Below, piece by piece: positions 16,018 through 19,905 of a stretch of DNA of 35,917 nucleotides. The stretch is from Bacteroidota bacterium (GTDB taxonomy: Bacteria; Bacteroidota; Bacteroidia; B-17B0; Aurantibacillaceae): positions 1 through 35,917 of the forward strand of contig JANYGK010000039.1 in the NCBI GenBank assembly GCA_025362395.1, in the 5' to 3' direction. Below the pieces are notes generated by a model. It was not told where the DNA came from and made no database searches. It was given only the letters and a program-made list of their open reading frames with translations. The stretch's first letter is position 1; each line of letters opens with the position of its first letter. The position numbers and the translations under genes were made by a program.

Positions 16018-16187
16018 TTTAAATTTCCGGTAGTACGTTAAAGTATTCCTTTTTGAAGCCTGTTCCGAGCTTGTTTCGGGAAGGGTGTTCGTCAGTTGAC
16101 GAGCGGTAAATGTGAGAAACATTCATATCTATAGGTATCATCATGCTTAACTTGTTTCAGCATCCCACACACCGTTTCTTTTTCAAT
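16018..16187. repeat. Intergenic region with short hairpin repeats
   Basis: No gene is supported here. Three short dyads are visible: TTCCGA/TTCGGGAA (16063-16082, one bulge), TCGTCA-GT-TGACGA (16089-16102), and ATGCTTAA/TTCAGCAT (16143-16163, one mismatch, 5-nt loop). The last one matches, on the opposite strand, the hairpin at 19635-19655. These look like dispersed intergenic elements of the genome rather than a single site. Confidence 0.5.
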
Positions 16188-16319
16188 TTTCTTTTGCTTG
16201 AACAAAAGAAACAAAATTCAAGGCCGAACGCCAACTCCAAGCGGCCCCGCTCATGCCCTTCAAGCTTGCAATTCGCACCGTTCGGCCAAAGCAGCCGCAC
16301 TATTACCAACGCATGAGAA
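16188..16319 (+). repeat. Structured dispersed repeat, copy 1
   Basis: This copy aligns along its length with the reverse complement of 19711-19848. Stem A: TTTCTTTTG/CAAAAGAAA (16188-16211) with loop CTTGAA. That loop is complementary to TTCAAG at 16217-16222. Stem B: GGCCGAACG (16222-16230) with CGTTCGGCC (16279-16287), perfect over 9 bp. Stem C lies inside B: AACTCCAAGC (16233-16242) with GCTTGCAATT (16264-16273), 8 of 10 pairs. A conserved tail (CTATTACCAA..ATGAGA) follows. It lies 170 bases behind the SDR stop in sense orientation and is more GC-rich than the surrounding spacer. Confidence 0.8.
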
Positions 16320-16363
16320 ATGCACCTGTGTGTGATAGATATACATCCGTTTATAAGTCTAAC

Positions 16364-16390
16364 TAATTCCTCTTTCAAAAGGAGGAATTA
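16364..16390. repeat. 9-bp perfect hairpin upstream of the TonB receptor
   Basis: TAATTCCTC (16364-16372) pairs with GAGGAATTA (16382-16390) across a 9-nt loop. No T tract follows on either strand, so it is not an ordinary terminator. It ends about 45 bases before the -7 element at 16436. Confidence 0.5.
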
Positions 16391-16435
16391 TCATCTACCC
16401 AATACAAATCTTTATTTCATCCAAAAAAAAGATAA

Positions 16436-16443
16436 TATCTTTG
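16436..16443 (+). promoter_or_regulatory. -7 promoter element TATCTTTG of the TonB receptor gene
   Basis: Exact TAnnTTTG match ending only 9 bases before the ATG at 16453. The transcript would have almost no leader, and the TTG at 16441 lies inside the element, which rules it out as start. Confidence 0.6.
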
Positions 16444-16452
16444 CAAACTATA

Positions 16453-18819
16453 ATGCAAAAAATATACATATTATTTTTTCTTTTAATAACCCGAACCCTT
16501 CTTTCACAAGAAGAGCTGACGCAAACTATTCGCGGAACCGTTATTGATAAGCAAACACAAAGTCCTTTACCGGGTGCTGTGATAAGCATTGCCGGCACTA
16601 ATCCCATAAGAGCTGCATCTACCGATGCGGAAGGAAAATTCAGATTCGACTCTGTCGTGCTTGGAAGAAAACAATTAAAAATATCACTTATTTCTTACAA
16701 AGAAAAATCACAGACCGTTACCCTAAACAGCGGTAAAGAAACCGTTTTAAATATTGAATTGGAAGAAAGTGCCGTGCAGGGCCGGGAGGTAGTAGTAACA
16801 TCGGAAGTGGATAAAACAAAAACGAATAATAAAATGACTACGGTAAGCTCCCGCGTATTCAGCACTGAGGAAGCAAGCCGTTATGCCGGCAGCAGGGGCG
16901 ACCCCGCGCGTATGGCAGCTAACTATGCGGGGGTAAGTGGCGCCAACGACAGCCGTAACGATATTATTATCAGGGGAAATTCACCCCTGGGAATTCTGTG
17001 GCGCTTAAACGGCTTAGACATTCCTAACCCCAATCACTTTGGTAACCTTGGTTCTTCGGGCGGCCCTATCAGTATCTTAAATAATAATACATTAGATAAT
17101 TCCGATTTTTTAAGCGGCGCTTTCCCGGCAGACTACGGTAATGCCACGGCAGGTGTCTTTGATCTCAAAATGCGTTCGGGTAACAACGAAAAATATGAAT
17201 TTTTGGGTATGATTGGTTTTAACGGCTTCGAATTAGGAGCAGAAGGACCGTTTAATAAAAAGAAAAAGAACGGTTCCTTTATGATTAATTACCGTTACTC
17301 AACCTTAGCGGTTTTTAAATACATAGGACTCGATTTCGGCACGGGCAGTGCTGTTCCTCAATACCAAGACCTTACTTTTAAAACAGATTTTCCTACAAAA
17401 AAAGCGGGTAAGTTTTCGGTGTGGGGCATCGGTGGTTTAAGTTTTGTGGATCTTAAACAAAGTGATCAGTCAAAAGGAAATAACCTGTACGGATACAGCG
17501 GCCTTAATACGTCTTTTAAATCGAATGTGGGAGCAAGCGGCTTAGCACATACCTATTTATTGAACTCAAGCTCTTACATTAAAACAAACATCGGTATTTC
17601 GGGGCAGGGAAATATAATTACTGCCGATAGAGTGGATACAAGTAAGCATCCCGCAACCATAAGGCCTGATTACAGGAATACATCCTATACCATAAAATAT
17701 TCTGCCAATACAACTTATAACAAAAAATTTAATTCACGCAATTTCGTGAACGGCGGTTTTTATTTAGATCTGTATAATACGTCTTTTGTAGACAGTATCG
17801 ACAATGACGGTAAGGGTTTTGTGATACTCCGTAATTATAAAGGACAAACATTTTTAGGGCGCGGTTTTATAGAATGGAAACATTCCTTTAATGAAAAACT
17901 GTCACTCAATACAGGATTTACTTACCAATATTTAGTGTTAAACAGATCGAGTGCGCCGGAACCCAGATTAGGATTAAAATATGAATTCAGTAAAAAACAA
18001 TCGGTAAGCTTTGGAGCAGGCCTGCATAGCCAAGTGCAACCTTTGTATATTTATTTTGCAACGTCAAATTTAGGAAATGGCAACATCCGGGAAACCAACC
18101 GCAATTTAGATTTTACAAGGGCTGTGCACGCGGTTGTGGCATACGATGTAAACCTATTTAACAGCGTCCGCATTAAAGCAGAGGCTTATTATCAATATTT
18201 GTACAGTATCCCAATTAAATCGTATCCTAATTATTTCAGTACCGTTAATTTAGGTGCCGACTTTAACAGTCCCAATGTAGACAGTTTGGTAAGTAAAGGA
18301 ACAGGTGATAATTACGGAATAGAACTGACACTCGAAAAATTTTACAGCAAAGGCTATTACTTTTTAGTAACTGCTTCACTCTTTGAAAGCAAATACCGCG
18401 CAAGCGATAACGCATACCGCAATACTGCTTTTAACGGGAACTATGTATTTAATGCATTGGCAGGAAAAGAATTTAAAATTAAAGAAAAACATATTTTGGC
18501 TTTAGACGTTAAAGTAACTTATGCCGGTGGAAAGCGTTACGTACCAATTAATGTGGCAGCATCTATACTGTCACAAAGCGAAGTGCGCGATGGTACATTC
18601 GCGTATAATTATCAATACGACCCTTACTTTAGGATAGATATTAAACCATCTTATAAATTAAATACCAAACGTTTTACACATGAAATAAGTGTGGATATTC
18701 AAAATGTGACACGGCATAATAATATTTTTCAGCAGGAATACGATCTTAATACGCAAGCCGTTAAAACAGATTACCAACTAAAGTTCTTTGTTATTCCCCA
18801 ATATAGGTTAACGTTTTAG
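16453..18819 (+). CDS. TonB-dependent outer-membrane receptor with CarboxypepD_reg-like domain
   Basis: The 788-aa protein has a signal peptide (MQKIYILFFLLITRTLLSQ). Residues about 25-105 form the carboxypeptidase regulatory-like (Ig-like) domain: IRGTVIDKQTQSPLPGAVISI and TDAEGKFRFDSV. A TonB plug follows (about 110-235), with IIIRGNSPLGILWRLNGLDIPNPNHFG and GAFPADYGNATAGVFDLKMRS. The rest is a beta-barrel ending in RLTF, with a terminal aromatic as usual. It imports a large ligand across the outer membrane using TonB energy. No SusD-like partner follows, so it is not a classic glycan pair; the ligand is unknown. The ATG at 16453 is chosen because the upstream TTG overlaps the promoter. Repeat copies lie on both sides of the block it heads. 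Confidence 0.93.
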   Translation: MQKIYILFFLLITRTLLSQEELTQTIRGTVIDKQTQSPLPGAVISIAGTNPIRAASTDAEGKFRFDSVVLGRKQLKISLISYKEKSQTVTLNSGKETVLNIELEESAVQGREVVVTSEVDKTKTNNKMTTVSSRVFSTEEASRYAGSRGDPARMAANYAGVSGANDSRNDIIIRGNSPLGILWRLNGLDIPNPNHFGNLGSSGGPISILNNNTLDNSDFLSGAFPADYGNATAGVFDLKMRSGNNEKYEFLGMIGFNGFELGAEGPFNKKKKNGSFMINYRYSTLAVFKYIGLDFGTGSAVPQYQDLTFKTDFPTKKAGKFSVWGIGGLSFVDLKQSDQSKGNNLYGYSGLNTSFKSNVGASGLAHTYLLNSSSYIKTNIGISGQGNIITADRVDTSKHPATIRPDYRNTSYTIKYSANTTYNKKFNSRNFVNGGFYLDLYNTSFVDSIDNDGKGFVILRNYKGQTFLGRGFIEWKHSFNEKLSLNTGFTYQYLVLNRSSAPEPRLGLKYEFSKKQSVSFGAGLHSQVQPLYIYFATSNLGNGNIRETNRNLDFTRAVHAVVAYDVNLFNSVRIKAEAYYQYLYSIPIKSYPNYFSTVNLGADFNSPNVDSLVSKGTGDNYGIELTLEKFYSKGYYFLVTASLFESKYRASDNAYRNTAFNGNYVFNALAGKEFKIKEKHILALDVKVTYAGGKRYVPINVAASILSQSEVRDGTFAYNYQYDPYFRIDIKPSYKLNTKRFTHEISVDIQNVTRHNNIFQQEYDLNTQAVKTDYQLKFFVIPQYRLTF

Positions 18820-18890
18820 ATAGTTCTTAATATAATGTAACGGTATATTATCAGGTATAACTACATTAAACTTTTTAAACGTAAAAGTGT

Positions 18891-18898
18891 TAACTTTG
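18891..18898 (+). promoter_or_regulatory. -7 promoter element TAACTTTG
   Basis: Exact TAnnTTTG match 41 bases before the thioredoxin ATG at 18940. Confidence 0.55.
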
Positions 18899-18939
18899 AA
18901 TAATAGTCAATGTCAATCATCATAAAAAAATAAAATGCC

Positions 18940-19257
18940 ATGTTACAAACAAGTACAGATACTGATTTTGAAAATCTTATAAAATCAAATAATAAAGTAG
19001 TAGTAAAGTATTTTGCCGACTGGTGCGGATCCTGTAAATTATTTTCGCCAAAATTTAAACGCCATGCAAGCCATGAAGATAATGCCGATGTATTATTTTT
19101 AGATGTAAATGCCGAGGAGAATGAGACTGCGCGTAAGCTTGGCGGGGTTGATAATTTGCCGTTTATAGCCACCTTCAAAAACGGAATATTATTTGAGGGT
19201 TCAGCAACAAGCAAAGAAGAGTATTTACAAAAAATGATAGAGGATCTAAGAAAATAA
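18940..19257 (+). CDS. Thioredoxin family protein
   Basis: The 105-aa protein has the thioredoxin active site WCGSCK (about residues 28-33) and the cis-proline loop NLPFIATFKNG near residue 80. There is no signal peptide, so it is a cytoplasmic disulfide reductase. The CGSC centre differs from the CGPC of main thioredoxins, which usually alters redox potential. The DUF6952-like gene follows, with a large hairpin between them. In other Bacteroidota I recall a thioredoxin next to this small protein, often with a peroxiredoxin; none is present here. It has its own promoter at 18891. Confidence 0.9.
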   Translation: MLQTSTDTDFENLIKSNNKVVVKYFADWCGSCKLFSPKFKRHASHEDNADVLFLDVNAEENETARKLGGVDNLPFIATFKNGILFEGSATSKEEYLQKMIEDLRK

Positions 19258-19269
19258 AATATTTTAAAT

Positions 19270-19317
19270 CACATAGGCACATAGAAAACATAGTTTAAAA
19301 ATCTATGTGCCTATGTG
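19270..19317. repeat. 16-bp perfect inverted repeat between thioredoxin and DUF6952 genes
   Basis: CACATAGGCACATAGA (19270-19285) pairs perfectly with TCTATGTGCCTATGTG (19302-19317) across a 16-nt AT-rich loop. It begins 12 bases after the thioredoxin stop and ends 19 bases before the next ATG. There is no T tract after the stem. Each arm itself contains a near-repeat (CACATAG twice). Confidence 0.75.
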
Positions 19318-19336
19318 GTTAAATAAACTAACACAA

Positions 19337-19579
19337 ATGAAGATACCTGCCATAAAAAAATTAGTTGAAACCTATAATCTGGCTCAATTACAGGAAGCAG
19401 AAGCCGCTTTATTAGAAGAACAAAAACCGGCCATTGATGTGGAAGGCGATGATGAAGGTGAACAACTGACGCATATTTTAGCATCCATTTATATTAAAGA
19501 TAAAATGGAGCATCACGGTACAGCTTTCAATCAAGCTCTTCGTGATTTTAGTCAAAGAGTGAGAAACAGTATCGGGTAA
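19337..19579 (+). CDS. Small acidic protein, DUF6952-like, 80 aa
   Basis: The start is the ATG at 19337 (MKIPAIKKLVETYNLAQLQ). The frame runs up to a GTG at 19307, which lies inside the inverted repeat and is unlikely. The protein is predicted helical, with an acidic centre (DVEGDDEGEQLTHILASIYI) and a basic C-terminus (FSQRVRNSIG). It resembles the small Bacteroidota family that I recall as DUF6952 and that occurs next to thioredoxin or peroxiredoxin genes; the name is from memory and should be treated as likely, not certain. The function is unknown. The stop codon touches a 10-bp inverted repeat (19579-19636). Confidence 0.8.
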   Translation: MKIPAIKKLVETYNLAQLQEAEAALLEEQKPAIDVEGDDEGEQLTHILASIYIKDKMEHHGTAFNQALRDFSQRVRNSIG

Positions 19580-19655
19580 TCTCATTACTGATTGGGTTAT
19601 CCTGAACCCGTTAAAGAATCCTTCGGGTAATGAGATGCTGAAACGAGTTCAGCAT
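19579..19655. repeat. Two consecutive hairpins after the DUF6952-like gene
   Basis: ATCTCATTAC (19579-19588) and GTAATGAGAT (19627-19636) form a perfect 10-bp stem that encloses GGGTT/AACCC (19594-19609). A second hairpin, ATGCTGAA/TTCAGCAT (19635-19655, 5-nt loop), begins where the first ends and overlaps its last two bases. The second matches the dyad at 16143-16163 in opposite orientation. The first stem begins in the stop codon. These probably end the transcript or stabilise it, though no U tract follows. The rest of the 326-base gap up to 19905 holds repeat copy 2 and no gene. Confidence 0.6.
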
Positions 19656-19710
19656 GACGACCTCAATAGAGGGTTCGAAAGTACTGGTACGGATACATTA
19701 GGCCGGTAGC

Positions 19711-19848
19711 GTCTCTCATAAATTGGTAATAGTGTGCGCTGTTTTGGACGAACGGTGCGAACTGTAAGCCTGCAAAGAAAGAGCGGGGTCGCTTACAGTT
19801 GGTGTTCGTCCTTGAATTTTTGTTTCTTTTTGTTCAAGCAAAAAGAAA
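19711..19848 (-). repeat. Structured dispersed repeat, copy 2
   Basis: This is the reverse-complement partner of 16188-16319. Read on the minus strand, stem A is TTTCTTTTTG/CAAAAAGAAA (19823-19848), one pair longer than in copy 1, with the same CTTGAA loop and TTCAAG partner. Stem B is GGACGAAC/GTTCGTCC (arms at 19804-19811 and 19746-19753). Stem C is AACTGTAAGC/GCTTACAGTT (arms at 19791-19800 and 19760-19769), perfect over 10 bp. Changes relative to copy 1 keep pairing in stems A, B and C. It lies 58 bases behind the S41 peptidase stop, in sense orientation to that gene. Confidence 0.8.
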
Positions 19849-19905
19849 TAAGAAGATCAAAATATTACAAATCTGTTTTTTTTATCAAATTAGTCTATAA
19901 ACATA

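Follow-up and report, generated by a model that had tools for sequence, protein, structure and literature searches.

What a short stretch of DNA keeps when its letters change is the question raised by two facing copies of a structured repeat in contig JANYGK010000039.1 of a Bacteroidota bacterium (Aurantibacillaceae; assembly GCA_025362395.1), analysed here over its 35,917 nt (hereinafter the window). An initial annotation had placed the copies at 16188-16319 and, in reverse complement, 19711-19848, and had read their paired differences as selection on an RNA or single-stranded structure such as a 3′ untranslated region (3′UTR) element, a small RNA or a non-autonomous mobile element. The observation is confirmed and is larger than stated, and the interpretation is partly supported: the copies belong to a dispersed repeat of about 140-175 nt with 30 covariance-model matches in its own genome (designated G000; other genomes and loci carry G and L numbers), a short, non-coding and probably mobile sequence that has kept its foldability while its letters changed in an uncultured group of Bacteroidota. 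With moderate confidence, our preferred reading is that of a dispersed, non-autonomous mobile repeat whose pseudoknot module is constrained. What is new is that the linker of this pseudoknot tracks its stem in length.

On the strand read by the initial annotation, the element runs 5′ to 3′ from a T-rich lead into stem A (S1), which has an inner T_n:A_n part and a six-base loop, mostly CTTGNN, and then through a linker of C plus A_n into a box NNCAAG complementary to the S1 loop. Behind the box stands a long hairpin, composed of stem B, an asymmetric internal loop, stem C and a variable loop, followed by an unpaired tail CCGCACYATTACYAACGTATG. With this structure written out for 18 own-genome copies, covariation extends to all four helices, namely stems A, B and C and the pseudoknot helix formed by loop and linker, with both-sided changes in 17 of 33 pairs and standard pairs in 89.1% of cells. 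The covariation score is 0.300 versus 0.111 for shuffles, none of 500 of which reaches the observed value, and sliding of the partner strand yields no more than 0.101; since the structure comes from the same 18 sequences, it has an advantage over the slid versions, and the shuffles ignore relatedness. Both-sided changes affect five of nine pairs in helix 1 (stem A), and pair 21-40 of the second helix is A-U in 11 copies, C-G in six and U-A in one, unbroken in all 18. The constrained single-strand structure of the initial annotation is thereby backed, as is the pseudoknot that it had raised as a possibility, the latter by second-helix covariation and by the length rule described below.

In 104 of 129 parsed copies, the two runs of S1 (T and A) and the A-run of the linker have the same length, with n = 4, 5, 6 or 7 (the parse took 129 of 158 copies; an earlier, cruder run-length count took 115 of 158). 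Counted over distinct sequences, T-run and linker run agree in 51 of 68, compared with 18 on average, and never more than 30, in 10,000 shuffles. Twelve of the 25 exceptions to run equality have a linker run of 0 to 2, as where a short palindrome occupies the linker. Under a second definition, requiring a stem of at least 7 pairs plus a matching box, 40 of the 48 distinct sequences of the genus have a linker equal to the inner stem minus 1. The same relation is found in 11 of the 12 modules of a second sample (11 from genomes of four other families, one from a congener), where it holds also if the extra stem pairs are G-C or A-T. Among the 129 parsed copies the S1 closing pair is G-C in 58, C-G in 45, T-A in 13 and mismatched in 13, and the second helix is of the type CTTGAC/GTCAAG (43), CTTGAA/TTCAAG (32), CTTGAT/ATCAAG (13) or others. 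Since linker length follows stem length, the rule points to a single-strand H-type pseudoknot; such a fold, if its first loop is short and its A-rich second loop lies along S1, would require this.

On the favoured reading, the constant 5′ module forms an H-type pseudoknot in which the inner part of S1 consists of T_n:A_n plus the closing pair, the S1 loop pairs with the following CAAG box in a second helix of 6 bp, and the A-rich linker has an A-run that falls one nucleotide short of the inner stem. Behind the module come the long hairpin of stems B and C, which is exchangeable, and the constant 3′ tail. We infer that the linker makes A-minor contacts along S1, possibly as an A-minor-like triple helix, which would mean RNA. 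The fold may act in single-stranded nucleic acid and be recognised by a trans-acting factor that spreads or maintains the element, and its arms may be kept paired by selection, helped by conversion between copies. The rule is quantitative and common to modules with unrelated downstream sequence, and it makes the role of the fold testable: in G042 the module is followed by unrelated sequence in ten stretches (by eye, not folded), and in G016 a different palindromic sequence stands behind some modules (by eye). The module also harbours other repeats. In L329, L336, L335, L346, L294, L299 and L020, short palindromes such as TCACGCCTTGGCGTGA or TCCCGATAACTATCGGGA stand in place of the linker, directly before the CAAG box, and REP-like sequence of the CCTTCGACTGCGCTCAGG type lies within the S1 loop in L291, L292, L299 and L353.

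The window copies align from end to end with 83% identity by BLAST, which places copy 2 at 19714-19848 (− strand). Their full model matches span 16184..16324 on the + strand (copy 1; cmsearch 153.6 bits, E 1.1e-29) and 19708..19851 on the − strand (copy 2; 152.8 bits, E 1.6e-29), both copies being in the model's training set. In copy 1, the arms of stem A, TTTCTTTTG at 16188-16196 and CAAAAGAAA at 16203-16211, enclose the loop CTTGAA at 16197-16202, as read from the sequence and helix 1 covariation; the linker CAAAA (16212-16216) and the pseudoknot partner TTCAAG (16217-16222), which complements that loop, are placed by the length rule and helix 2. The hairpin at 16222..16287 comprises stem B (16222-16230/16279-16287) and stem C (16233-16242/16264-16273), placed by the sequence and helices 3 and 4, and the conserved unpaired tail CCGCACTATTACCAACGCATG at 16295..16315 has many near-invariant columns. 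Copy 2, on the − strand, has stem A arms TTTCTTTTTG (19848-19839) and CAAAAAGAAA (19832-19823) around the loop CTTGAA (19838-19833), and a linker CAAAAA (19822-19817), consistent with the length rule, before the partner TTCAAG (19816-19811). Its hairpin (19746..19811) pairs GGACGAAC (19811-19804) with GTTCGTCC (19753-19746) in stem B and AACTGTAAGC (19800-19791) with GCTTACAGTT (19769-19760) in stem C, both predicted as drawn, and its tail CACACTATTACCAATTTATG lies at 19717..19736.

All three paired differences listed by the initial annotation can be read from the sequence: stem A has 9 bp in copy 1 and 10 bp in copy 2, the third pair of stem B is C-G in one and A-T in the other, and the sixth pair of stem C is C-G versus T-A. 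Two more had been overlooked, namely the growth of the linker from A4 to A5 along with stem A, and two mismatches in stem C of copy 1 (C.A and C.C), both paired in copy 2. Folded as RNA on the annotated strand, copy 2 adopts the structure as drawn (z −4.0; 0 of 200 dinucleotide shuffles as good) and copy 1 folds weakly (z −2.1; 4 of 200 as good); folded as DNA, copy 1 is predicted to contain stems A and B. Copy 1 is matched as closely by a further copy, on contig C39 (128 bits by BLAST), as by copy 2 (126 bits).

A covariance model built from the 18 own-genome copies was used to search the genome and its relatives, and the family is much wider than the pair; two copies with random drift, the outcome that the initial annotation had set against its reading, are not what was found. 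The RNAalifold structure in this model (R1) pairs the inner hairpin unlike the stem C counted in the covariation test, so R1 under-uses the hairpin. A BLAST search with copy 1 gave 29 own-genome matches, in some cases with one copy split into two. Of 60 genomes, 28 match at an E value of 1e-4 or lower: the own genome, 17 of its 19 congeners, 4 of the 17 other genomes in the family and 6 of the 23 others in the class. Copy number ranges from 0 to 37 among congeners, with more than 200 model matches in one genus, and the weak matches outside the genus consist partly of the 5′ module alone. The 21-base tail motif was found in 45 stretches of the named collection, the titles of these stretches all naming Bacteroidota, Bacteroidetes or Bacteroidia metagenome assemblies. 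Neither the tail motif nor the pseudoknot pattern matched viral contigs, and copy 1 matched no plasmid or phage. Rfam at the gathering threshold returned no match in the window or in four stretches with other variants, a lax Rfam scan of two loci gave, besides tRNAs, sub-threshold matches only, and literature searches listed no published description of the repeat. Variation in the tail (e.g. 16295-16315, CGC ACN NTT ACY AAC GTA TG) is mostly third-codon-like for RTITNV, with upstream frames not kept; a protein-coding reading of the tail built on it was dropped because loop lengths break the frame.

The copies have inserted in either orientation, mostly into intergenic DNA. Among 68 callable copies of 75, the 5′ neighbour has the same direction as the element in 38 and the opposite in 30, and the gaps are tandem (23 and 22 in the two orientations), convergent (15) or divergent (5); genes were open frames of 100 amino acids or more, and four copies were flagged inside such a frame. 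Both window copies do lie in sense behind a gene (SDR; S41 peptidase), as the initial annotation said, and a sense-oriented 3′UTR element was rejected on the orientation counts. More broadly, a host RNA element under selection at each site, whether a 3′UTR stabiliser, a terminator or a small RNA gene family, would fit this placement of the window copies and the lower divergence of the core, at several orthologous sites, relative to neighbouring non-coding DNA. The mixed orientation, the spread of copy number between congeners, recurring neighbours that look like ordinary host genes and the scarcity of G-U pairs make it very improbable.

Orthologous sites with and without the element support mobility. 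Upstream of rnhB, an element is present in G019, whereas the same gap in G004, G008 and G010 measures between a few and a few tens of bases. At another site, the sequences that flank a G012 copy are separated by 9 bases in G004 and by 12 in G008. The rnhB upstream gap (L059; orthologues L174-L183 and L185) holds other palindromic repeats in some congeners and is near-empty in others, making it an insertion hotspot. In relatives, some cores are framed by terminal inverted repeats (TIRs), as in G009, where the frame is GGGTTCACTCAA..TTGAGTGAACCC. Among the 14 framed copies (G009, G001 and G015) in which both ends are present, 5 are flanked by an exact 6-bp TANNTA duplication, identified by eye, its chance rate not computed. 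In some G001 copies the frame is a different one, GGCTCTTCGACA, and two of these, L252 and L234, have 8-bp duplications, likewise identified by eye. Together with the near-empty sites, these framed copies back the mobile-element option of the initial annotation.

They would also fit an ordinary TIR-type miniature inverted-repeat transposable element (MITE), for which a DDE transposase would act as mover and the structured core would be no more than a passenger. Framed copies in G009 and G001 and one in G015, several with target duplications, favour this alternative, and, as in MITEs, coding capacity is absent (variable loop lengths break frames, by eye) and copies are many. The frames, however, differ between copies while the core is constant, so that the core is shared and the ends are not: the same core sits in two unrelated TIR types, and across the genus the common part is the core rather than the frame. 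In G000 itself, only 2 of 23 rows scored above the best of 30 shuffles for inverted repeats, and no common repeat emerged; this negative result is weak since the low-sensitivity alignment overlooked repeats visible by pattern in L240 and L270. On balance a MITE with a passenger core appears unlikely. G016 contains convergent element pairs about 50-180 bases apart that form composite inverted structures (L082, L083, L085 and L086), several with palindromes like GATACTTTTGCGAAAAGTATCCAAAAGC at their outer ends.

Ten genome pairs share an insertion, as judged by matching flanks (for L346/L335, one short flank only, with dissimilar cores), and reveal how the hairpin changes in place. L272 and L350 are separated by three both-sided changes, of which two fall in stem B and one in stem C; between L253 and L326 an A-T pair of stem C changes to G-C and stem B carries one uncompensated change; and the G000 C88 and G012 C275 copies show both-sided changes at the S1 closing pair, in the second helix and in stem C. 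Hairpins are also exchanged or lost: L247/L334 have the same flanks and a different hairpin allele, and in L357/L353 the hairpin is missing in one genome and a palindrome stands in the S1 loop in the other. In the seven same-core pairs (the sums omit two pairs with different cores and one with a lost hairpin), identity is 1002/1107 in the core versus 288/376 in the 30 bases on either side.

Such changes could arise by mutation alone, with template switching and gene conversion rewriting the arms and covariation as a by-product in a decaying repeat. Template switching is reported to make multi-base compensatory changes (PMC8794818), and wholesale change of stem B alleles, the swap of a whole hairpin at L247/L334 and the rarity of G-U intermediates all fit such a process, which nonetheless predicts neither that a linker outside both arms keeps the length of the stem nor that an unpaired tail is conserved. 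We consider this explanation doubtful, if somewhat better placed than the MITE.

Several observations weigh against a mobile repeat with a constrained pseudoknot. Pairing is imperfect: the outermost second-helix pair is unpaired in 8 of 18 copies and one stem C pair in 10 of 18, and the predicted minimum-energy RNA fold of copy 1 retains stem A and not the B/C hairpin. At orthologous sites, the G000 C88 and G012 C275 copies also show uncompensated changes, L067/L091 have one uncompensated stem B change and an insertion in L091 that destroys stem C, and the core is no better conserved than its flanks in L234/L329 and L067/L091. Gene conversion among copies could imitate compensation as well as conservation; because conversion by other copies could contribute, conservation at orthologous sites is not proof of selection. 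For window-type copies no clean empty site with exact ends or target duplication was found, a search with L064 returning only a rearranged locus in G005, and the inverted-repeat result in G000 given above counts on the same side. The remaining points concern the nature of the strand and the missing enzyme.

G-U pairs are rare for an RNA, at 6 of 525 standard pairs in the 18-copy set compared with 31 of 443 pairs in 21 tRNAs of the fetched loci (ARAGORN; brackets held standard pairs only). Flanked one-sided mismatches in stems B and C are more often A.C than G.T (35 versus 15 cells; 22 versus 13 distinct contexts; 94 of 158 copies taken, 64 skipped as anchors were not found), a lean that would favour the opposite strand and is not significant (P about 0.4 by contexts for stem B and likewise for stem C). 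A stronger G.T versus A.C bias (44 versus 219; 122 of 158 copies) was judged inflated by the conserved internal loop, and a significant value obtained after adding stem A was a register artefact. The opposite strand has the lower predicted folding energy in both copies. Relative to shuffles, its z scores as DNA are −3.3 and −5.2 for copies 1 and 2, versus −2.1 and −4.1 for the annotated strand; as RNA they are −0.5 and −3.6, versus −2.1 and −4.0.

No enzyme could be tied to the element among TnpB, reverse transcriptase, Y1 transposase and neighbouring genes (DDE transposases, IscB and ToxN were not searched). The TnpB zinc ribbon (PF07282) was absent from all 31 genomes, incomplete assemblies in which IscB was not searched, and positive in 6 of 14 control genomes. 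RVT_1 (reverse transcriptase) occurs in 12 of 31 genomes and not in the incomplete assemblies of G000, G001, G008, G009 and G016, which hold 16 to 37 copies. Y1 transposase occurs in 27 of 38 genomes, with no match in the incomplete assemblies of G016 (29 copies) and G007 (11 copies), and the 15 Y1 loci scanned about 1.5 kb to each side, the same-genus ones of 30 returned, contained no element match. TnpB, reverse transcriptase and Y1 transposase were accordingly set aside as partners, and the REP-type nuclease proposed by the initial annotation was not linked to the copies. As the assemblies are incomplete, absence of an enzyme is weak evidence. Protein clusters from 59 loci revealed no recurring partner-like gene (ToxN profiles were not run); the recurring clusters look like host genes, the largest being 8 ABC-transporter-like proteins, with an accA/ispE region in three genomes.

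A bolder form of the mobile reading would make the pseudoknot a portable RNA handle under a strict stem-linker rule, read by a trans factor, with varied payloads behind it and varied transposon ends around it in several Bacteroidota families; the stem-linker rule would then probably be an A-minor triple helix. We hold this to be improbable, about on a par with the MITE; if true, the handle and not the DNA ends would define the mobile system.

The repeat is not assigned to any known family, since every family considered has at least one defining feature that was lacking or not established here; nearest in kind are ERIC (enterobacterial repetitive intergenic consensus) and Correia/NEMIS. These are reported as non-autonomous mobile sequences and, like the present repeat, are intergenic, non-coding, 100-200 bp long, foldable and present in tens to hundreds of copies (PMC2267715, PMC10969869). 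ERIC has been described as one long stem-loop (PMC2267715), unlike the pseudoknot with a length-coupled linker before an exchangeable hairpin. ERIC belongs to a different phylum and its sequence was not compared, so that the likeness is one of kind, with no claim of homology or membership. The fold itself resembles that of the type III antitoxin RNA CptI, which in its crystal structure is an H-type pseudoknot: the first loop is a single nucleotide, and the long, A-rich second loop occupies the minor groove of S1 (PMC4627078); the analogy is of fold only. Type III antitoxin RNAs consist of tandem pseudoknot repeats upstream of a ToxN/CptN toxin gene, whereas the copies here are solitary, dispersed and fused to a hairpin, and no partner-like gene recurs in the 59 loci. 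REP/RAYT systems are dispersed intergenic hairpin repeats suspected to act as single-stranded DNA; the present element differs in being much longer and not linked to Y1 transposase genes, no GTAG-type tag having been looked for. TnpB/IscB omega-RNA elements of the HEARO kind are multi-copy structured RNAs with a pseudoknot, some copies being solitary, and differ from this repeat, which has no Rfam match and no TnpB zinc-ribbon match in the 31 genomes (IscB not searched).

Small structured repeats of the ERIC kind are common, yet the significance of the fold and the identity of the mover are rarely clear. Here, more than 200 matches in one genus, which yield a length rule, and orthologous sites at which hairpins are compensated, swapped or lost, turn the action of the fold as RNA or single-stranded DNA, and a protein that binds the pseudoknot, into testable questions.

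Between the window copies lie a CarboxypepD_reg protein with a weak TonB-plug match (16441-18819) and a thioredoxin-like open reading frame (18940-19257). A second, REP-like repeat of the CATGCTGAACTTGTTTCAGCATCTCA type stands beside both copies, at 16128-16167 and 19631-19670, 5′ of one and 3′ of the other, and this or a related repeat (GTCATTGCGAACGAAGTGAAGCAATCTCAC) is found immediately 5′ of several other own-genome copies.

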